Part shown: positions 20,126 to 58,295 of the stretch, piece by piece
How the letters are laid out: the number at the start of each line of letters is the position of its first letter
Numbering within the stretch: position 1 is the stretch's first letter
Origin: Occallatibacter sp.
GTDB taxonomy: Bacteria; Acidobacteriota; Terriglobia; Terriglobales; Acidobacteriaceae
DNA length: 59,917 bases
Direction of reading: 5' to 3'
NCBI GenBank assembly: GCA_031296165.1
Contig: JARLGF010000067.1
Span: 1-59,917 of the forward strand
Program-made: the position numbers and the translations under genes
The notes under the pieces: generated by a model
The model's input: only the letters and a program-made list of their open reading frames with translations
Databases searched by the model: none
Told to the model about the DNA's origin: nothing

Positions 20126-23100
20126 ATGTCAAGCTTGCATGAATCGCGCGGAACGGTAATGGGACTGAGCACGGGCCTGCGGGCACTGTTTGCAACCGGG
20201 CTACTTCTGGCGGCCGGCAGTTTATCCACTCACGCCCAGGTCAGTGTGACCACCTGGCGCAACGATATCGAGCGGACAGGACAGAACCTCAGCGAGACCA
20301 TCCTCAATACCTCCGATGTAAACACCACGCAGTTTGGCAAGCTCTTCTCGCAGGCTGTGGACGGATCAGTCTACGCACAGCCGCTCTATCTTCCAAACGT
20401 GTCAATCGGCGGGCAATCGCACAATGTTGTGTTCATTGCTACCGAGCATGACAGCGTATATGCCTTCGATGCGGATAATAACGGCGGTGGCAATGCGAGC
20501 CCTTTGTGGTTTGCCTCGATGCTAAGTACTGCGCACGGAGCCGCGTCGGGCGCCACCACGGTTTCATCGAATACAGTGGGCACCGATATCGTCCCCGAGA
20601 TAGGAATTACAGGAACCCCGGTCATCGATCCAACGAGCGGCACTCTGTATGTGGTGAGTAAAACCCAGGAAGGCAGCAGCTTTGTTATGCGCCTGCACGC
20701 CCTTGATGTAACCTCGGGAGCTGAGAAACTGGGGGGGCCGGTAGCCATTACAGCAACGGTTTCCGGGACCGGAAATGGCAGCTCCGGCGGCACCCTTTCC
20801 CTGGACTCCGAATGGGAAAACCAGAGGCCTGGTCTGCTCCTGCTCAACGGCATTGTCTATATAGGTTTCGCTTCTCACGGCGACAACGGACCGTGGCATG
20901 GCTGGATTCTCGGATACAACGCAGCGACTCTGCAGCAGACAGGCGTATTCTGCACGTCTCCGAATGGCGTCGGTTCTGGAATATGGATGGGTGGCGCCGG
21001 TCTGTCGGCCGAAGTGCCTGATCCCGTCAATCACCCGTATGGCCGGATGTTTATAGCTACAGGAAACGGCGACTACACAGCCACCACGCCGTATGCCTTC
21101 GGCATGGACTATGGAGACAGCGTTCTGAACCTGGATCTGACCAAGGGCGTGCCGACCATCCAGGATGAGTTCACGCCTGCGAATCAGGCCCAGTTGGATG
21201 CATACGATGGAGATCTGGGAGCAGGTGGAGTCTTGATTGTTCCCAACCAGACCTCCGGCAGTTACCCGCATCTTTTGGTCCAGGCTGGAAAATCGGGCGA
21301 AGTTTACCTGCTCAATCGCGAGAATCTTGGGGGATACAACACCGCCGGCGATAAAGCAGTCCAGGGGATTACGTATGCGGTCGGGAACGTGGGCTCCTGG
21401 GTAATGCCTGCATATTGGAACGGAACAGTTTATTACTGGGGAACAAAAGACACTCTCAAGGCATTTCCACTGGTAAACGGACTGCTGACCGGTCCCACCG
21501 CCACATCCGCCGAGACGTACGGCTATCCCGGGGCGAACCCTGTCATATCGGCCAACGGGAATACGCAGGGAATTGTCTGGACCATTGATTCCGATGCCTA
21601 TGTGACTTCTGGCTCCGCCATTTTACAGGCTCACAACGCCAGTAGTATTTCCACCACGCTTTATTCAAGCAGTACAAACTCGTCGCGCGATAACCCTGGT
21701 CCCGCGGTCAAGTACACCGTGCCGACCGTGGCCAACGGCAAAGTATATGTCGGTGCGCTCGGGCAAGTAAGCGTGTATGGATTGCTGAATGGGCAGCAAC
21801 TTGCCTCGAATCCCGTGTTGAGTCCGGGAGCAGAGAGCTTTAGTAGCAGTCTTTCCGTGAGCATAACGGACGCGACACCGGGCGCAACAATCTACTACAC
21901 CCTCGATGGCACCGCGCCTTCCGTGTCCTCTCCCGTATACACAACTCCCATTATCATCACGGCAACAACGACGATACAGGCCATGGCGAGTGCTCCCGGC
22001 TACCTTCAGAGCGCGGTAACTTCTGGAACGTATGTCGACTCCACGCAGGCCAGTACGCCAGTCTTCGATCAGGGCAGCGGCACCTTCGCGCAACCTCTTT
22101 CCGTAACCATCAGCGATTCCACTGCCGGAGCTTCGATCTACTACACGACCGACGGAACGACACCAACCACCTCCTCGACTCTGTACACCGGAGCGATAAC
22201 AGTAAGCACCACGGAAACCCTGAACGCAATCGCTGTAGCCCCGGGCTTTGCCAACAGCAGTATGGCAAGCGCAACCTACACCTTGAATATTGGACAAACG
22301 GGGATTAACTTCCCGGTTGGCTTTGCGGGATCCCAGGATATCTTGATCTTGAATGGAAGCAGCGTCCTGGACGACTCCCGTCTGCAAATGACTAATGGCT
22401 CGACAGGGCAAGCCGGAACAGCATGGTACTATGCGCCTGTAAATGTTCAGGCGTTCACCACTGACTTCAGTTTCCAGTTATCCAACCCGGCAGCCGACGG
22501 AATTACATTCGCTATCCAGGGAAATTACAACTATTCTTTGGGTTACTCTGGATCGGGACTCGGGTATCAGGGCATCCCAAACAGCCTTGCAATCAAATTC
22601 GATTTCTATAACAATGCGGGTGAAGGTCCGGATTCAACCGGCCTGTACACCAACGGCGTCAGCCCGACCATTCCCGCCATTGACCTGAGCGCAACGGGCA
22701 TCGATCTGCACAGCGACGATACCATGGACGTTCATCTGGCCTATAACGGAACCATTCTGTCCATGACAATCACGGATATGGTAACCGGAGCGGCTTATTC
22801 CAAAAGCTGGACGGTAAACATCCCTTCGATAGTAGGCGGAAACACTGCCTATGTCGGATTTACAGGCGGAACAGGTGGACTAAGTTCCAGCCAGAAGATT
22901 CTGACGTGGACTTACACGCTCGGATCGAACGCTTCACCGGTTTCGACTTCGCCGGCCTTTACTCCGCCCGGTGGATCGTACGCCACGGCGCAGTCGGTGA
23001 GCATTGCCAGCGACTCCACAGGCGCAACCATCTATTACACCACCAACGGAACAACTCCAACAAAGTCGTCGCCGGTCTATAGCGCTCCCCTTACCATAAG

Positions 23101-24313
23101 TTCCGCCGAGACTTTGAAAGCAATCGCAGTAGCTTCCGGATATGGTTCCAGCGCCATGGCCACCGCAACTTATAGTATTGCGCCCATTCCAGCAGCTCCG
23201 GTTTTATCTCCGGCCCCCGGCACTTATACGGCTGCGCAAACAGTAAGCATGACTGAGGCTACTGCGGGGACCACCATCTACTACACAATCGACGGAACCA
23301 CGCCTACTACCTCGTCTGCCGTCTATAGCGCTCCAATCACCGTAAGCGCCAGTGAGACGGTGCAAGCCATAGCTGCGGGAACCGGCTATAACAACAGTCC
23401 GGTCGCGGGAGGAACCTATACCATTGCAGCCCTGCTGCCAGCGCCGACGTTTTCTCCCTCGGGCGGAGTGTATGCTGCAGCACAGACGGTTACAATCAGC
23501 GACGCGACCGCTGGCACGATCATCTACTACACCGTCAATGGAACCACGCCTACTACCTCGTCTACCGTGTACAGCGGCCCAATCACAGTAAGTGCGACAG
23601 AAACCTTCGAAGCCATCGCGGTGGAGACGGGCTACACCAACAGTCCCGTCGCCACCGCCTCCTACACCATTGGCTCAGGAACCACAACTTTCATCAGCTA
23701 TCCCAGCAACGGATTCACGGCGACCAACCTGTCTCTGAACTATGGCGCGTCCGTAACCGGCGGATTGCTGCAGTTGACCGACGGGGGAACAGGGGAAAAT
23801 CGCACCGCATGGTTCTCCACGCCCGTGCCGGTGCAGAGTTTCATTACCGACTTCACCTTCCAACAGTTGAATGCCACTGCGGACGGCATGACGTTTGCAA
23901 TTCAGGGCAGCAACATCTGGGCGTTAGGTTACTCCGGAGGTGGACTCGGGTATCAGGGAATTCCAAACAGTGTCGCGGTCAAATTCGATCTATATGACAA
24001 TGCCGGAGAGGGGTCGGATTCGACGGGACTGTATTCCGGTGGAGTGGCGCCCACGCTGCCTTCGGTCAATCTGAGTTCTACCGGAATCAACCTGCACAGC
24101 GGAGACGTGATGCATGCGCACATGGTCTATGACGGGACCAACCTTACCATGGCGCTGACCGATACTGTGACCAACGCCACGGTGACGGAAGTGTTCCCGG
24201 TGAATATCCCTGGCCTGGTGGGAGGCAATACGGCCTACGTTGGGTTCACCGGCGGTACAGGGGGCATGAGCGCAACACAGAAAGTGTTGTCTTGGACATA
24301 CACAGCGCCCTAG
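20126..24313 (+). CDS. secreted quinoprotein-type propeller / chitobiase-like repeat / lectin mosaic
   Basis: A 1395-residue exported protein. After the signal peptide (ALFATGLLLAAGSLSTHAQ) comes a PQQ-like beta-propeller, about 40-557 (VFIATEHDSVYAFDA, HLLVQAGKSGEVYLLNRENL). Two chitobiase C-terminal-type repeats follow (558-637, 641-720; core ATIYYTLDGTAP), then a legume-lectin-like domain (721-933), three more repeats (937-1017, 1021-1100, 1102-1181) and a second lectin-like domain (1186-1395). The lectin copies share GLGYQGIPNS and NTAYVGFTGGTGG. It likely binds polysaccharide on or outside the cell; no catalytic residues are evident. ATG 20126 has AAGGATGG upstream; ATG 20159 is an alternative start. 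It is divergent from the S9-like gene. Confidence 0.85.
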   Translation: MSSLHESRGTVMGLSTGLRALFATGLLLAAGSLSTHAQVSVTTWRNDIERTGQNLSETILNTSDVNTTQFGKLFSQAVDGSVYAQPLYLPNVSIGGQSHNVVFIATEHDSVYAFDADNNGGGNASPLWFASMLSTAHGAASGATTVSSNTVGTDIVPEIGITGTPVIDPTSGTLYVVSKTQEGSSFVMRLHALDVTSGAEKLGGPVAITATVSGTGNGSSGGTLSLDSEWENQRPGLLLLNGIVYIGFASHGDNGPWHGWILGYNAATLQQTGVFCTSPNGVGSGIWMGGAGLSAEVPDPVNHPYGRMFIATGNGDYTATTPYAFGMDYGDSVLNLDLTKGVPTIQDEFTPANQAQLDAYDGDLGAGGVLIVPNQTSGSYPHLLVQAGKSGEVYLLNRENLGGYNTAGDKAVQGITYAVGNVGSWVMPAYWNGTVYYWGTKDTLKAFPLVNGLLTGPTATSAETYGYPGANPVISANGNTQGIVWTIDSDAYVTSGSAILQAHNASSISTTLYSSSTNSSRDNPGPAVKYTVPTVANGKVYVGALGQVSVYGLLNGQQLASNPVLSPGAESFSSSLSVSITDATPGATIYYTLDGTAPSVSSPVYTTPIIITATTTIQAMASAPGYLQSAVTSGTYVDSTQASTPVFDQGSGTFAQPLSVTISDSTAGASIYYTTDGTTPTTSSTLYTGAITVSTTETLNAIAVAPGFANSSMASATYTLNIGQTGINFPVGFAGSQDILILNGSSVLDDSRLQMTNGSTGQAGTAWYYAPVNVQAFTTDFSFQLSNPAADGITFAIQGNYNYSLGYSGSGLGYQGIPNSLAIKFDFYNNAGEGPDSTGLYTNGVSPTIPAIDLSATGIDLHSDDTMDVHLAYNGTILSMTITDMVTGAAYSKSWTVNIPSIVGGNTAYVGFTGGTGGLSSSQKILTWTYTLGSNASPVSTSPAFTPPGGSYATAQSVSIASDSTGATIYYTTNGTTPTKSSPVYSAPLTISSAETLKAIAVASGYGSSAMATATYSIAPIPAAPVLSPAPGTYTAAQTVSMTEATAGTTIYYTIDGTTPTTSSAVYSAPITVSASETVQAIAAGTGYNNSPVAGGTYTIAALLPAPTFSPSGGVYAAAQTVTISDATAGTIIYYTVNGTTPTTSSTVYSGPITVSATETFEAIAVETGYTNSPVATASYTIGSGTTTFISYPSNGFTATNLSLNYGASVTGGLLQLTDGGTGENRTAWFSTPVPVQSFITDFTFQQLNATADGMTFAIQGSNIWALGYSGGGLGYQGIPNSVAVKFDLYDNAGEGSDSTGLYSGGVAPTLPSVNLSSTGINLHSGDVMHAHMVYDGTNLTMALTDTVTNATVTEVFPVNIPGLVGGNTAYVGFTGGTGGMSATQKVLSWTYTAP

Positions 24314-24450
24314 TACTACAGTTGTTGATCGGAAATTCCGGAGGGAGCAGGGGGGCCCTGAAACAGCTCCGTCGGCGCGGCCATCGGGGAGTGGCATCCC
24401 CTGCAACGCCTATGACAACTCTCCTTAATTTCTGAACCCGCTCCAGGCAT

Positions 24451-24502
24451 CTGCAAAAGGGAACAGGGAAGTATCGGGAATATTCCCTGTTTCCTTTTGC
24501 AG
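24451..24502. repeat. 20-bp inverted repeat (hairpin) beside dispersed repeat copy 1
   Basis: 24451-24470 and 24483-24502 are inverted copies, 19 of 20 positions matching, around a 12-base loop. There is no T-run on either side, so it is not a standard terminator. Its right arm ends in TTTGCAG, the left border of the dispersed repeat. The remaining 24314-24450 stretch shows nothing. Confidence 0.7.
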
Positions 24503-24872
24503 AGAATTACCCTCTCTTGGCGCACAATCTTTTCAGGGTGATTTTGTTTGAAGCCGTTGATCGAATTCCGCAGGGAGCAGGCGGCGTCAACCCCAGGTCT
24601 TTGCCGCTTTTTCTTGGCCCAAAGGAACTACAACTGGAGACCTTTTCAACTCGGAATAAAAGGGCTAAATATCGGAATGCGGTACAAAATATCAAAAAAG
24701 TGCCAGAAATCGACCGTAACCCCTTTATTATCTAATTTTTGGCATATAACCCCTTTAGAATCTAATTTTTGCGGCGATGGCCCCTCGCATCTCGTTGAAA
24801 CTGGAGAACTTGACTAAATACATAGGGGGAGGGGGGGAGGGGTAATCAGATAATCAACAGATCGCTTCCCTT
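24497..24872 (+). repeat. dispersed intergenic repeat, copy 1
   Basis: It shares with 50101-50484 and the complement of 57507-57849 an ordered set of landmarks: GCAGA(T/G)AATTACC, GGCGCACAAT (24519), TTTTCAAC (24643), GCGGTACA, AACCCCTTTAGAATCTAAT, CGTTGAAACTGGAGAAC, TACATAGGGGG (24819) and a G-run. From TTTTCAAC to TACATAG it is 176 bp here, against 179 and 178 in the others. An internal 30-bp unit (AACCCCTTTA..ATCTAATTTTT) is present twice. After the G-run, TAATCAGATAATCAACAG is shared with copy 3. No open frame is conserved between copies. Confidence 0.85.
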
Positions 24873-25115
24873 GCAGCCCAAATAACCCCTCATGGCCATT
24901 CCAGAATTGGTAGAAAGCGAAGCCCGCGCGGCCATCGAGTAGCAGCGGCCCTGCAAAACGTCCCTAGAGCTAAAAGGAACAGACTCGCTCCATCCTTGGT
25001 GCGACGCTGTCATGGTGTGCGCTCATAGTGCGCTGCGGAAAGGCATGTAAACCTGCCTCTGCGGAGCGGATGAGGCTTATCGGCAACAGGGCCGCATGCA
25101 CCGGGAGGCCACTCG
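24873..25115. other. intergenic stretch before the Crp/Fnr gene
   Basis: Nothing recognisable apart from GGGAGG 8 bases before the Crp-family ATG. No Crp/Fnr-type palindrome is evident. Confidence 0.5.
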
Positions 25116-27455: not shown

Positions 27456-27475
27456 TTTGCAGTTGGAGCCAGCGC

Positions 27476-27520
27476 CTGTTCACACTACTGGCGTGGCCAC
27501 CGCGTCAGTAGTGTGAACAG
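27476..27520. terminator. second hairpin directly after the RND outer-membrane gene
   Basis: Perfect 15-bp arms (27476-27490 with 27506-27520) around a 15-base loop, starting 8 bases after the stop of the last RND gene. It has no T-run, so it may protect the 3' end of the mRNA rather than terminate alone. Confidence 0.6.
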
Positions 27521-27527
27521 ACCCTAG

Positions 27528-28943
27528 CTATTGCCAGCCGCCGCCAAGCGCGTTGTAGATTTGGACCAGGGCGAGCACCTCACTGTAGCGTGCCTGCGAC
27601 AGGCTCAATTCGGCGGTGTAATAGTTCGTTTCATTGGTCAGTACCTCCAGATAGGAGGTGGCGCCCGCTTCGTAGCGTACATGCGAGAGCCGGGCCGCAT
27701 CCTGTGCCGCCGCGGTCAGAAGCTCTTGCTGCTCGCGCGTTTCCCGCGATTTTTGATAGGCAACAAGAGCATCGGAAACATCGCGGAAAGCGCCTTGCGT
27801 TGTCTGCTGATAAGCAAGCAATGCCTGACGCTGCTGCGATTCGGTAACCAGCACGTTGTTGCGAATCCTGCCGCCCTCGAAGATGGGCTGCGACAGGGAT
27901 GGGCCGACACTCCATAGTCCGGCAGGTCCGCTGAACATGCTGGTAAGCGCTGTGCTTTGGTAGCCTGCCGTGCCGGTCAGAGAGATAGACGGGAAGTAGG
28001 CGGCCTTCGCCACACCGATTCTCGCGTTGGCCGCGATCAGTGTTTCTTCCGCCTGACGAATGTCGGGCCGCCGTTCGATCAACTCGGACGGAAGCCCGGC
28101 AGGTATCGTGGGAAGAAGCGCCTGCTCGGCCAGCTTCTTTCCTCGAGCGATGGGACCAGGATTCTGCCCCAGCAAAATGGAGATGTAGTTTTCCTGCTGC
28201 TCGATTTGCTTTTCGAGCGTAGGAATTTGTGTGGAGGCGGAGTAGACGAGCTGCTCGGCTTGCCGCACATCCATCAGCGGCGCCGAACCGCCGTCGGCAA
28301 GTGTCTTGGTCAGGCGCAGGGATTCCTGCCGGGATTTCAGCGTTTGTTGCGTGATTTCCAGTTCCAGATCCAGTGTCCGCAGTTGGAAGTAGGCGCTCGC
28401 CACATTGGAAACAAGCGTGCGGATGACAGCCTTTTGTCCCCATTCGGTTGCCGCCAGATCGGCGCGCGCCGCCTCGGTTGCCCTCCGGTATTTTCCCCAG
28501 AAGTCCAGTTCCCATGAGGCGCTCAAAGCCAGTTGGCCGGACTCTGCGCGATAGACCGGAGAGAGAGAGGTCTTTTCGCTACGCACCGAAGTGAACGCGC
28601 TGGAGGCCCCCAGCGAAGGCAATTGATCGGCATGGGTAATGCCGAGCTGAGCCCGCGCCGCAACCACGCGTTCGGCCGCGATGCGCGCATCGTAGTTGTT
28701 GGCCAGCGCGGTGCGAATCAGCGACTGGAGCTGTTCGTCCTGGAAAATCGTCCACCATTTTTCATCGCCCAGGCTTTTCTGAGCATTGCTCTTCTGTGCA
28801 TTGCTGGATGCCTCCAGTTCGGGGGCCTGTCCCCGGAAGCCTCCGGGGGCATTGACGGCCGGCCGCGCGTAGTTTGGTCCCAGCCTGCATCCGGCAAGCA
28901 CCAGCATGAGCGAAAGACTGAGTGAAATGCTTAGTGTTCTCAT
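27528..28943 (-). CDS. RND efflux outer-membrane lipoprotein (OprM/NodT family)
   Basis: A 471-residue TolC-like channel. The signal ends with lipobox LAGC (Cys19), so it is an outer-membrane lipoprotein, followed by RLGPNYARP as in the NodT family. Two outer-membrane efflux repeats (about 60-260 and 275-460) contain the long helices, e.g. NNYDARIAAERVVAARAQLG (in part) and SLSQARYSEVLALVQIYNALGGG (in part) near the end. It forms the exit duct of the pump encoded just upstream; its ATG overlaps the pump stop by four bases (ATGA). Two hairpins follow. Confidence 0.92.
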   Translation of the reverse strand: MRTLSISLSLSLMLVLAGCRLGPNYARPAVNAPGGFRGQAPELEASSNAQKSNAQKSLGDEKWWTIFQDEQLQSLIRTALANNYDARIAAERVVAARAQLGITHADQLPSLGASSAFTSVRSEKTSLSPVYRAESGQLALSASWELDFWGKYRRATEAARADLAATEWGQKAVIRTLVSNVASAYFQLRTLDLELEITQQTLKSRQESLRLTKTLADGGSAPLMDVRQAEQLVYSASTQIPTLEKQIEQQENYISILLGQNPGPIARGKKLAEQALLPTIPAGLPSELIERRPDIRQAEETLIAANARIGVAKAAYFPSISLTGTAGYQSTALTSMFSGPAGLWSVGPSLSQPIFEGGRIRNNVLVTESQQRQALLAYQQTTQGAFRDVSDALVAYQKSRETREQQELLTAAAQDAARLSHVRYEAGATSYLEVLTNETNYYTAELSLSQARYSEVLALVQIYNALGGGWQ

Positions 28944-33923: not shown

Positions 33924-33975
33924 AGAGGTGACTGCCGGTATATCGGTAATTGCCGATATACCGGCAGTCACCTCT
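33924..33975. promoter_or_regulatory. 52-bp near-perfect palindrome between sigma-54 activator and STAS/RND unit
   Basis: Arms 33924-33949 and 33950-33975 are inverted copies with 25 of 26 matches and no spacer, centred on TAA/TTG. It lies 96 bp downstream of the activator stop and 95 bp upstream of the STAS start on the same strand. It has no T-run on either strand. It could be an operator or activator site for the efflux unit, or an RNA hairpin ending the activator transcript. Confidence 0.65.
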
Positions 33976-36548: not shown

Positions 36549-36624
36549 TGGAGCCGACGGTCAGAGTCGAACTGACGACCTGCTGATTACGAATCAGCTG
36601 CTCTACCAACTGAGCTACGTCGGC
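36549..36624 (-). tRNA. tRNA-Thr (anticodon CGT)
   Basis: A 76-nt cloverleaf on the minus strand. The acceptor GCCGACG (36618-36624) pairs with CGTCGGC (36553-36559), followed by T and an encoded CCA. The D-arm contains AGCTCAGTTGGTAGAGC. The anticodon stem GCTGA/TCAGC encloses TTCGTAA, giving anticodon CGT for codon ACG. The T-loop is TTCGACT. All canonical positions are intact. Confidence 0.97.
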
Positions 36625-48860: not shown

Positions 48861-49850
48861 ATGGCATCCGTTGTAACCGTTTCTTCCCCTGAAACCGTCG
48901 TTGCACCCCCCTCTCTCCCCGTTTCGGAGTCGCCCGCTTCCGCGCCGGTTCGCGCTGTGCCGGCGCGGCAGGAGATTCGCATGGGCCGCGCCGCCTCCAT
49001 CGGCGCAGGCATCAACTGGCTGACTCTGGGGGTCATTGTCGCCTTCCATCTGGGCGCGGTGGCGGCGCTGTTCTTCTTCAGTTGGCCCCGTCTGGTGGTC
49101 ATGCTCGTGCTCTATGTGGTGGCCATCAATGTCGGCATCGGCATGTGCTATCACCGCCTGCTCACTCATCGCGGCTACCAGGTTCCCAGGTGGCTTGAGC
49201 ATCTCATGGCCGTCTGCGCCACCCTCGCGCTTGAAGGCGGTCCCATCTTCTGGGTCGCCACGCATCGCGTGCATCACCAGCTCAGCGACCAGGAAGGCGA
49301 CCCGCACTCTCCCCGCGAGGGCGGATTCTGGGCTCATACAGGTTGGCTGCTCTGGGGCAACGCCCTGCACGCGCAAACTGAGGTTCTGGCCCGCTATGTC
49401 CCCGACCTCAGCCGCGACCGCTTTCTCGTCTTGCTCAGCAAGTACCACTGGATTCCCCTCGTCGTCAGCGGCGTGCTGCTCTTCGGCATCGGCTGGCTCA
49501 CGGGCGGATGGGTCAACGCTGTCGGCATGTTGCTCTGGGGTGCTTTCCTGCGCGTAACCCTCGGCCTGCACGCCACCTGGTTTGTGAACTCCGCAACCCA
49601 CCTCTGGGGCACGCGCCGTTTTCAAACCCGCGACGGCTCCCGCAACAACTGGTGGGTGGCCCTGTTCAGCGGCGGCGAGGGCTGGCACAACAACCACCAT
49701 GCCCACCCCGTCTCCGCGCGCCACGGCCTTGCCTGGTATGAGATCGATCCCAACTACTGGGGCATCTGGCTGCTCTCCAAACTCGGCTTGGCCCGCAAAA
49801 TTCACGTAGCCAAGTTCGACCGCGCCAACCCCAAACCGGCAGGGAACTGA
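48861..49850 (+). CDS. fatty acyl-CoA/lipid desaturase
   Basis: A 329-residue di-iron membrane desaturase. Three His boxes: HRLLTH (98-103), HRVHH (135-139) and HNNHH (276-280). Two pairs of hydrophobic helices (LTLGVIVAFHLGAVAALFFF; LVVMLVLYVVAINVGIGM) and GEGWHNNHHAHP are typical of delta-9 stearoyl-CoA desaturases. It introduces a cis double bond into fatty acyl chains, affecting membrane fluidity. A polar N-terminus of about 40 residues precedes the first helix. ATG 48861 is the likely start; the longer in-frame extension overlaps the upstream gene. Confidence 0.93.
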   Translation: MASVVTVSSPETVVAPPSLPVSESPASAPVRAVPARQEIRMGRAASIGAGINWLTLGVIVAFHLGAVAALFFFSWPRLVVMLVLYVVAINVGIGMCYHRLLTHRGYQVPRWLEHLMAVCATLALEGGPIFWVATHRVHHQLSDQEGDPHSPREGGFWAHTGWLLWGNALHAQTEVLARYVPDLSRDRFLVLLSKYHWIPLVVSGVLLFGIGWLTGGWVNAVGMLLWGAFLRVTLGLHATWFVNSATHLWGTRRFQTRDGSRNNWWVALFSGGEGWHNNHHAHPVSARHGLAWYEIDPNYWGIWLLSKLGLARKIHVAKFDRANPKPAGN

Positions 49851-50100
49851 AGCGTCTACAGCATTTTGGGTATTGCCCGCGAAATTCGTTTTTTAGTCCC
49901 GGAGCGGACGATTGAAGATAGCCCCGGGTGATACCCGGGAAACTGAGCCCCCCGAAAACAACCCGTGCCCCGGGGTGCGGCGATAATTCAGCCAGTTTTT
50001 ACGGGCAAAATACGCCAAAAACTGCCAATCCATCCGAAATGACGCGCTGGCGAGCAGGTTTCACTGCCTCTGCAGCGCCGCATTTCGCAGATTTTCGCTG
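49851..50100. other. intergenic stretch downstream of the desaturase
   Basis: CCCGGG-TGATA-CCCGGG (49923-49939) forms a short hairpin without a T-run. The rest is unassigned. The dispersed repeat copy 2 starts after it. Confidence 0.5.
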
Positions 50101-50484
50101 TTTGCAGATAATTACCCCACCCAGGCGCACAATTGTTCCATAGTGTCTTTTTTGAGCCAGGCAGTTGGCCTGATCATCGATCCATCCACCTGTCCATCCC
50201 AAAAAGGCGAAGCCGTGCAATCATTCATCGCGGCTTTATCGCGATGAGTGGGCCGCCGGGCCGCAAAGGGATGCCATCAAAGGAGTTTTCAACCCGATGC
50301 AGAAACGTCCAAATCTCGCATTACGGTACATGAACCTCCAAAACCACCCAAAAACCGCCTATAAGTCCTTTGTTATCTAATTTTTGATATATAACCCCTT
50401 TAGAATCGAATATTTACGGCGACACCCCCTACGTAACTCGTTGAAACTGGAGAACATGACTAAATACATAGGGGGGGGGGGGGG
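50101..50484 (+). repeat. dispersed intergenic repeat, copy 2
   Basis: The landmarks are in the same order as copy 1: TTTGCAGATAATTACCCC, GGCGCACAAT (50124), TTTTCAAC (50286), ACGGTACA, TATCTAATTTTTGATATATAA, CGTTGAAACTGGAGAAC, TACATAG (50465) and a run of 14 G. The spacer between GGCGCACAAT and TTTTCAAC is the longest of the family (162 bp) and holds a hairpin TCATCGCG-7-CGCGATGA (50225-50247). After the G-run it diverges from copies 1 and 3. No gene is supported in 50485-50681. Confidence 0.87.
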
Positions 50485-50681
50485 CAAATAGTACCGATAT
50501 ATGGTACGAGCCGCGCGCGTCTCTAACGGCTACAGCATGATAGATTCAGCTCTTTACAGAATCCTTCCACGATCTCCAAACCTCAGCAAGTGAATCGAAA
50601 ATGCTCTGCGCCGGTTTCCTGACCCGCACAGGCCAGCGCTGCAAAGGAACATCTTCAAGCGGTCTCGGTTCTCTGGAAGGT

Positions 50682-50990
50682 TCAGGAATGGTTGGCCTGG
50701 CGCAGCCTGGCCCGTACCCACAACGTGCCAAACACCGGCAGCGCCACAAGCAGCACCAGTACTCCGGCCGGAAAACCCGCGTACAGGTAGCTGTCCGCGT
50801 AGTTGATCGCATGGTGGCCCACCAGGTTCCAGCCCAGCAGCGCAAAGATGGCGATGAAGGTGGTTGCGAAGAATGTGAAGAAAGCCGCCGCAAACGACAG
50901 CAGCAGGCTGGTGAACAGCCCAAAGCCCTCCAGCGGGAAGCCCAAAAACGTCCCGCCGCCGGTGCGTGCGGTTTGCGTGGTACGTGTCAT
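50682..50990 (-). CDS. 102-residue membrane protein, unknown function
   Basis: Hydrophobic segments LFTSLLLSFAAAFFTFFATTFIAIFALLG (read in parts, two helices) and AGFPAGVLVLLVALPVFGTLW give about three transmembrane helices; the N-terminus is polar (TRTTQTARTGGG). The loop GHHAINYADSYLYAGFP is conserved-looking. AAGGAGG directly upstream makes the start certain. It is divergent from 51022 with only 31 bp between start codons. No function known. Confidence 0.68.
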   Translation of the reverse strand: MTRTTQTARTGGGTFLGFPLEGFGLFTSLLLSFAAAFFTFFATTFIAIFALLGWNLVGHHAINYADSYLYAGFPAGVLVLLVALPVFGTLWVRARLRQANHS

Positions 50991-57410: not shown

Positions 57411-57506
57411 TTGCGTTTTAGCGCCGCCAAGGAGTTGCAGGGCCGCCGCTTTCTGGCTTCGCTCTCCGTCTATTCTGCAACGGCCAGAACGGGTGATTCA
57501 GGCTGC

Positions 57507-57849
57507 GCGGGAAGCGGTCTGTTGATTTTCTGATTACCTCCCCCCTCCCCCCCCCTATGTATTTATTCAAGTTCTCCAGTTTCAACGAGATACGAAGGGT
57601 GTGTCGCTGTAAAAATTAGATTCTAAAGGGGTTATATATCAAAAATTAGATAAAAAAGGACTTACGGGTGTTTTTGGGGGTCTTTTTGAGGTTTTAGTAC
57701 CGTAATATGGGATTTTGATCCTTTGCATCGGGTTGAAAACTCCTTTGACGGTGTTTCTCCGGGGGGTAAGGCCGGGGCTTCTCCGTTCATGTGAAGAAAG
57801 ACACCATGGATCGATTGTGCGCCTGGGGAGGGTAATTATCTGCAAATTG
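57507..57849 (-). repeat. dispersed intergenic repeat, copy 3 (inverted)
   Basis: Complementary orientation to copies 1 and 2. On the minus strand: TTTGCAGATAATTACCC, GGCGCACAAT (57814-57823), TTTTCAAC (57732-57739), ACGGTACT, ATCTAATTTTTGATATATAA, CGTTGAAACTGGAGAAC and TACATAGGGGGG. TTTTCAAC to TACATAG is 178 bp; GGCGCACAAT to TTTTCAAC is only 84 bp. Beyond the G-run it again matches copy 1 (TAATCAGA.AATCAACAG). A 90-codon minus-strand frame across it is not conserved in the other copies. Confidence 0.87.
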
Positions 57850-57893
57850 GCCGGGAGCAGGGAATAAAAGAACGCGCGGGGTGGGGCGTCGAT

Positions 57894-57979
57894 CCCAGGT
57901 CTCCTAAGCAACTTCCCGTAAGTTGTTTGGAATCATCCACCGGCCAAAGCCGGTCTACTGCTCAGAATCGAGACCTGGG
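57894..57979. other. three-way-junction-like folded element
   Basis: Outer stem CCCAGGTCTC (57894-57903) with GAGACCTGGG (57970-57979) encloses two hairpins: a 9-bp stem (57906-57928, one G-T pair) with loop CCCGT, and ACCGGC-CAAA-GCCGGT (57939-57954). It is not a tRNA (no anticodon arm or T-loop pattern). Confidence 0.6.
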
Positions 57980-58043
57980 GCACCCCATATCAATTTGTGA
58001 CTGTCAGATCTTGGCCACCCGCCTTTGAAAATCACTCTATAAA

Positions 58044-58079
58044 GATTGTGCGCCTTGTCGGGGTAATTATCGGCAAACG
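58044..58079 (-). repeat. partial copy of the dispersed repeat left end
   Basis: Minus strand: TTTGCCGATAATTACCCCGA followed by CAAGGCGCACAATC, matching the left landmarks of copies 1-3 (GCAGATAATTACCC..GGCGCACAAT). The rest of the repeat is absent. Confidence 0.7.
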
Positions 58080-58125
58080 GCAGGGAAGAAGGAAAGGAAA
58101 GACTCGCGGGTGGGGTTCGTGGTAT

Positions 58126-58162: not shown

Positions 58163-58209
58163 GCACAGATTCGCCTTTCTGGGATGGAGGATCAGGGAGT
58201 GGGCCACCT

Positions 58210-58295
58210 GGCGTTACCACCCAGCGAATGAAGACCTATTCGCGGGGACCCCGGCGTTACTACCCAGCGGATGAAGACCTATCCGCGGGGGCCCT
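58210..58295. repeat. two 43-bp tandem repeats overlapping a gene end
   Basis: Units 58210-58252 and 58253-58295 share GGCGTTAC.ACCCAGCG.AT with GAAGACCTAT.CGCGGGG, differing at about 5 positions. A third partial unit (GGCGTTTACG) starts at 58296. The second unit supplies the stop codon of the next minus-strand gene. Confidence 0.8.

Follow-up and report, generated by a model that had tools for sequence, protein, structure and literature searches.

Are the three similar stretches of intergenic DNA found in this part of an Occallatibacter genome copies of a miniature mobile element, of a structured RNA, or of something else? The window, i.e., the whole stretch of DNA analyzed here (59,917 nucleotides), does contain three copies of the repeat, the third on the minus strand, and the distances given in the original prediction are exact: measured from start to start, TTTTCAAC is separated from TACATAG by 176, 179, and 178 bp in copies 1–3, respectively, and GGCGCACAAT from TTTTCAAC by 124, 162, and 84 bp. 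The two 30-bp units attributed to each core are present, but variable (in copy 2, they read AAGTCCTTTGTTATCTAATTTTT and AACCCCTTTAGAATCGAATATTT). Directly before the G-run lies another such unit, the third, which is diverged and had been missed (TATCTCGTTGAAACTGGAGAACTTGA in copy 3). The supposed border pair, ATTACCC...GGGTAAT, is exact in copy 1 only, as GGGTAAT is absent at that place in copies 2 and 3. The repeated unit also extends past the limits originally assigned to it, with sequence common to at least two other loci of the same genome covering positions 24365–24959, 49972–50525, and 57419–57903 of the window.

The conserved part of the element consists of three direct iterons of approximately 26 bp, at fixed spacing, followed by a G-run. 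In the window, these parts and the modules around them are arranged as follows.

24496..24528, plus strand: copy 1, 5' box (TTTGCAGAGAATTACCC..GGCGCACAAT); the equivalent place in copy 2 is a sharp 5' boundary of the common sequence
24529..24639, plus strand: copy 1, variable segment from the 5' box to the core, differing in length and content among copies
24640..24824, plus strand: copy 1, conserved core; 71–76 HSPs of >150 bp from host-genome loci per window copy
24717..24742, plus strand: copy 1, iteron 1
24747..24772, plus strand: copy 1, iteron 2, 30 bp past iteron 1
24788..24813, plus strand: copy 1, iteron 3, diverged, 41 bp past iteron 2
24825..24842, plus strand: copy 1, G-run, conserved in other genera
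24843..24959, plus strand: copy 1, 3' tail type X (GGGTAATCAGATAATCAACAG...), with matches at 25 further loci of the host genome
49985..50096, plus strand: copy 2, outer 5' module (GATAATTCAGCC...), in core orientation in 36/36 match–core pairs (host-genome loci)
50100..50133, plus strand: copy 2, 5' box; with copy 2 as the reference, 25 of the 76 long matches (HSPs) begin at 50097–50101 (TTTGCAG)
50134..50269, plus strand: copy 2, variable segment, containing hairpin cassette A, which is in core orientation in 26/27 match–core pairs
50270..50470, plus strand: copy 2, conserved core, with iteron starts at 50362, 50392, and 50434
50471..50484, plus strand: copy 2, G-run; HSP ends fall at 50481–50484 (52/76) and 50506–50514 (18/76)
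57813..57847, minus strand: copy 3, 5' box
57556..57751, minus strand: copy 3, conserved core, with iteron starts at 57664, 57634, and 57592 (minus strand)
57537..57555, minus strand: copy 3, G-run
57419..57536, minus strand: copy 3, 3' tail type X
36552..36624, minus strand: tRNA gene, from the Rfam scan of the window

A second 5' box at 58028–58087 (minus strand) lies upstream of that of copy 3, which indicates that these boxes can be doubled, and a few 5'-box matches in the host genome, among the matches listed, have no adjoining core match. The window contains other repeats as well. Four direct repeats of approximately 117 nt (22133–23635), three of them at 246-bp spacing, lie within the ORF at 20159–24313 and are probably repeated protein domains. 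A 26-bp inverted repeat with no spacer (33924–33975), 96% complementary, is similar to a 30-bp inverted pair at 27467–27529, and two tandem 43-bp units at 58207–58292 are 88% alike.

The three-copy observation is thus real, and the family is larger than had been stated. In the host genome, from which the window was taken (2.78 Mb in 161 contigs, 65.5% complete), BLAST recovered at least 46 matches to copy 1 (40 of the 95 candidates being scored). The pattern CCTTTAGAATCTAATTTTTGC, with up to three mismatches, was matched 95 times and its reversed control not once, so the repeat is not a product of chance, and nhmmer identified at least 78 distinct core copies. These are dispersed and intergenic, as originally described: none of the 78 overlaps a predicted gene (0 of 81 profile matches, three of which come from relatives), with the genes being called by the author's own simple hexamer caller. 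The gene that adjoins the G-run end of a copy is convergent in 51 cases, codirectional in 24, and missing in three (p = 0.0024), while some copies lie 11–100 bp ahead of a predicted gene start. The order and orientation of the modules are kept, with the 5' box in core orientation in 62 of 65 match–core pairs and the 3' tail X in all 25, while the segments between modules are variable and the 3' tail is of at least two kinds. Several copies are located at contig ends, and copies of the repeat may explain breaks in the assembly.

The search of acidobacterial genomes recovered the element in further genera, including two complete genomes, G234 and G264, with 68 and 64 sites, respectively (E ≤ 0.01, with reverse-strand doubles removed). 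Among 299 genomes of the class, a model based on sequence only, R1, located elements in 43, with up to ten places scored per genome. A second model, R2, applied to 396 genomes of the phylum, located them in 29, including 27 from the same family as the host; 22 of these 27 have at least eight places. The R2 search, with its strict filters, did not detect the element in many other relatives within this family. In the 33-sequence, cross-genus alignment, the mean column identity is 52%, the iterons follow a consensus of the type TAACYCCTTTnnnnTCAATATTTTGC, and the spacing, counted over all 33 rows, is 29 bp (25/33) or 30 bp (8/33) between iterons 1 and 2, and 42 bp (25/33), 41 bp (6/33), or 40 bp (2/33) between iterons 2 and 3. 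Spacing by the iteron PWM was taken only from elements with three iterons each scoring >4 (26 of 81 in the host-genome set and 24 of 76 in the relatives). The window copies have the three iterons at 29–31 and 40–42 bp and the G-run by which the element is defined. In the relatives, the G-run is often followed by TACCC, as judged by eye. The absence of a named family also held up, given that the Rfam scan of the window matched a tRNA alone, and the family was not found in the literature on acidobacterial intergenic repeats, searched without full texts. It appears to be an undescribed element family of the Acidobacteriaceae and some related families. Seven matches in non-acidobacterial records, to a pattern with a different spacer length, were supported by neither of the two element profiles, and the 16 pattern matches on viral contigs included no full element by profile, which gave two matches that were both partial and weak (E 0.02 and 0.07). 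A link to plasmids was looked for, and none was found.

Some variants of this anatomy were also observed. In L091, L102, L111, L121, and L224, the G-run forms an inverted repeat with a C-run, such as CATAGGTATGGGGG...CCCCCATACCTATG in L091. Genome G264 has two element subfamilies (L122, L123, L125, L129, L131, and L155), one of which carries TTTCCACA between iterons 2 and 3, a sequence that we take to be close to a DnaA box.

The history of individual copies can be followed through their flanking genes. Both genes that flank copy 2 are kept in relatives, and the element is absent from this site in all 17 of those examined, a chosen subset of 29 relatives. The matched ends of the two genes are 9–103 bp apart in nine of the 17, and are separated by 958–1943 bp of other sequence in eight; the gap that holds copy 2 measures about 830–860 bp. 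The absence of the element from all 17 relatives, together with the short gaps in nine, indicates that copy 2 is most likely a lineage-specific gain, as read from the sequences compared. Some other copies are demonstrably retained by vertical descent. In L100 and L179, the element is kept between flanks that are both 85–87% identical, the block TGTCAAGCCCC..TATACTG is almost unchanged, and the sequence just upstream is poorly alignable. Only the G-run-side flank is common to L090/L097/L099, L092/L130, and L102/L146.

The gap between the two convergent genes at the site of copy 2 (window 49850–50682) spans 9 bp to approximately 7 kb in relatives of the same genus, including the 3–7 kb gaps of G008, G012, and G022, which lie outside the subset of 17, and its long forms hold other inserted genes. 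Given this range, the site has the look of an insertion hot spot. Among the short gaps (L267–L272), L271 and L272 have a putative intrinsic terminator between the two convergent genes, and others contain little beyond the stop codons.

The copies also have a preferred direction. In G234, elements of the same orientation occur in long runs along the chromosome (19 changes vs. 33.9 expected), the first 16 all being on the minus strand; G264 has no such runs (31 changes vs. 30.9 expected). The minus-strand run of G234 sits where the plus strand is G-rich, and the third-codon GC skew of the flanking genes was therefore measured, corrected for gene strand and read along the element. The intercept of this skew is −0.085 ± 0.011 in the host genome (305 genes) and −0.227 ± 0.025 in the relatives (118 genes, with all 56 relatives' elements pooled), with coding bases nearly balanced between the strands. 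The skew along the element is negative in 58 of 77 copies of the host genome (p = 1e-5; all 78 copies given and 77 scored) and opposite in the other 19. It is also negative in 34 of 35 copies of the relatives (p = 2e-9), a count that leaves out the G264 loci, the orthologues L097 and L099, and L091, and in 32 of 33 once the second orthologues (L130 and L146) are removed as well. Among the copies linked to the protein family described below, 29 of 39 are negative. Locus L080 of the host genome is missing (77 of 78 given) from the skew intercept, from the skew counts for these linked copies and G264, and from the upstream-hairpin and TIR/TSD counts presented below.

In most of the genomes tested, then, the copies are oriented against the G-rich strand. 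There is no bias in G264, either by skew (9/15) or by replichore (36/64, with the terminus taken half-way), and one region of G234, at 5.23 Mb, runs against the pattern, with skew and elements in the "wrong" pairing. In G264, the strand leading away from dnaA, which is the author's reading of the ORF that opens the contig, is G-rich (+0.18 to +0.23, corrected with the slopes of other genomes), and the direction of the fork in these genomes may be marked by the skew. Should the leading strand be the G-rich one in the other genomes as well, the G-run would fall on the lagging side, which is the opposite of what drift in base composition would be expected to produce.

A possible protein partner was first suggested by a small gene located downstream of two copies of the element in relatives. 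This gene belongs to an unnamed family of small, Cys-rich proteins whose N-terminus resembles a CCCH zinc finger, referred to here as CRH. The element lies just upstream of 25 of the 28 CRH places found in eight of 13 genomes searched. A profile search found CRH in 75 of 299 genomes. Of the 51 distinct CRH genes, 41 are closely preceded by a same-strand element match at E < 0.05 (30/51 at E < 0.001), with 11 of the 41 matches being partial and weak (E 0.001–0.05). In the pooled set of 58 loci, which includes seven repeats of the same gene, 48 have a same-strand match (E < 0.05) that ends 7–123 bp before the CRH match. At some of the ten genes with no element match, a truncated iteron and a G-run can be seen by eye, and L152, also among the ten, is at a contig edge. 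CRH occurs in 37 of the 43 element-positive genomes vs. 38 of the 256 others, a co-occurrence that is partly shared ancestry. Of the seven CRH-linked elements of G264, L155 has 91% identity with the solo copy L131, while the other six have one another, rather than solo copies, as their closest matches. No CRH gene lies directly downstream of the window copies, and a single protein query and a single profile found none in the host genome, which is 65% complete. The profile also had no match in the element-bearing genomes G141, G153, G190, G266, and G289, and one protein query recovered no relative from the viral contigs.

A total of 135 CRH homologues were found, and among the 120 listed, those with a name are called "hypothetical protein", with six of the 120 names being Terracidiphilus records. 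Eight positions are invariant, including three Cys and two His. Two members scanned against Pfam and NCBIfam gave no match above the cut-offs, the PDB sequences gave none at E ≤ 1, and the domain scans found no replication initiator. Two weak Pfam matches recur among 18 members: the primase zinc finger, which is the most frequent sub-threshold match (8/18, best E 0.0015), and DUF5763 (7/18, best 0.001). The likeness to these domains, and to HGGxSTG, lies in the C..C..C..H pattern of the CRH N-terminus, in weak matches that fall below the curated cut-offs where these are given. The predicted structure (mean pLDDT 65.0, pTM 0.46) is confident only in two middle helices, residues 55–70 and 76–92, which correspond to the conserved LEDRxSIQ...LLLYGLQxASxN part, for which no named relative was found. 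The Cys-rich N-terminus is poorly predicted (pLDDT about 52–55), so that the putative zinc site is read from the sequence.

Both of the identities initially proposed for the repeat can be weighed against these findings. The idea of a structured RNA, or of a small-RNA gene family, appears very improbable, given a consensus fold of only −0.75 kcal/mol with five pairs. The 5' box does have a promoter-like look, part of the relatives have terminator hairpins, and, in the host-genome set, the spacer between iterons 2 and 3 contains a hairpin that is paired in 78% of alignment cells, vs. 20–55% in slid controls, with a few two-sided changes. No such spacer hairpin can be made out by eye in G264, while that of iteron 1 is no better than one slid control (0.84 vs. 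0.83). No element in the window or in ten loci of relatives has an Rfam match at gathering score (E up to 0.5); the three sub-gathering matches, all in the 5' part of the L094 element (sX12, E 0.03; BSnc120, E 0.11; ohsC, E 0.48), are read as chance. The miniature mobile element fared better in part, in that copy 2 is probably a lineage-specific gain and the family is spread and oriented relative to strand skew, as well as extragenic and high in copy number. Its size, its non-coding and dispersed nature, and the 5' and 3' ends common to many copies recall MITEs, but terminal inverted repeats and target duplications are not seen. In copies 1 and 2, the longest string common to one end and the reverse complement of the other is 5 nt, and in 59 copies, the longest common flank string averages 3.98, vs. 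4.04 in shuffled flanks, with the m5 and X/Y modules making the outer boundaries uncertain. Movement of a REP/REPIN by a Y1 (RAYT) transposase would agree with the reported action of Y1 enzymes on the lagging strand at forks (PMC6006769), and Y1 (PF01797) exceeds the cut-off in all six genomes tested (1–6 matches each, 18 in total). Two of the 18 matches lie 0.9–1.3 kb from an element (in G141 and G264). The numbers of Y1 and elements, however, do not track, with one weak match (E 1e-4) for the 68 sites of G234 and a single match with an internal stop in the host genome. The iterons of the core are direct, moreover, and do not form the inverted, palindromic REP doublet, and a known miniature transposon of either type is considered improbable.

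The main rival to the combined reading set out below is an ordinary cis-regulatory module, that is, a promoter, operator, or regulon site copied by normal duplication, in which selection acting on the G-run, or on transcription, would produce the bias in orientation. The position of the element before most CRH genes and of some copies 11–100 bp before a predicted gene start would fit such a module, as would a terminator-like hairpin upstream of iteron 1, detected in 17 of the 56 elements from relatives (vs. 1.0 expected after mononucleotide shuffling, and one in the downstream control), often behind a TATAAT-like box by eye. The host genome, however, has no enrichment of this hairpin (4/70, with 2.0 expected and three in the downstream control), copy 2 arose between two convergent genes that are 9–103 bp apart in nine of 17 relatives, and the G-run-side neighbor is convergent in 51 of 75 host-genome copies, which means that the majority of copies do not precede a gene. 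This explanation is thus regarded as unlikely, although still credible. A different function, with a distinctly smaller probability, is that of an oriented signal for replication or segregation, such as a fork barrier or a loading or polarity site, which, like other oriented motifs of chromosomes, would be selected for its direction. While the orientation to the skew in 34/35 copies of the relatives and 58/77 of the host genome is what this would predict, and the primase zinc finger recurs among the sub-threshold matches of CRH, a density of 64–78 copies per genome is sparse, G264 is unbiased, 19/77 host-genome copies are reversed, and the element is undetected in many relatives of the family under strict filters.

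The best reading, which is tentative and given somewhat less than an even chance, is that of a dispersed, replication-oriented, protein-binding DNA element, similar to REPIN/RAYT systems but lacking their palindromes, with a CRH protein and fork-linked copying as its presumed agents. An iteron spacing that stays fixed although sequence identity is low, the absence of a consensus RNA fold, and the use of the array as a leader of CRH genes point to a site bound by protein at the level of the DNA, and the bias in orientation to a spread, or a selection, coupled to replication. The functional core would be the array of iterons with its terminal G-run, one version of which forms the 5' region of most CRH genes, while most copies are solo in intergenic DNA. 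The CRH protein, or a partner, may recognize the iterons, and the repeat may spread through copying linked to replication forks, so that the majority of copies would be oriented against the fork. A bolder form of this idea, which is improbable, is that of a new replication-coupled genomic parasite, or a domesticated network, in which CRH proteins acting on single-stranded DNA at the fork would recognize the triple-iteron/G-run tag of their own leader and copy it into intergenic DNA, in a fork-dependent orientation, with no known transposase or recombinase.

Iteron arrays at plasmid origins are direct repeats of approximately 20–30 bp, at near-helical spacing, located beside the gene of a DNA-binding protein. 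The element resembles these arrays in its direct repeats of similar spacing beside a putative DNA-binding protein gene, but is chromosomal, with tens of copies, and no initiator match was seen in CRH. In PMC3116915 and PMC6006769, REP repeats are described as high-copy and extragenic, with some copies kept vertically and others gained by single lineages, and as associated with a protein family of few copies. The element shares all of these traits with REPIN/RAYT systems, and, in the same papers, the Y1 enzymes have a connection with the strands of replication. It differs in having three direct iterons and a G-run, over approximately 350–500 bp, in place of the palindromic doublet, in the lack of a clear tie to a Y1 transposase, and in its linked protein, which is Cys-rich and CCCH-like, with no recognized catalytic domain.

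Three genomes thus each contain 64–78 copies of a repeat that is associated both with strand skew and with a protein family that has no name. The element and CRH represent a putative protein–DNA pair that is concrete enough to be tested, and an oriented repeat of this type could report on the direction of the replication fork, or on a new way in which DNA spreads through the genome.
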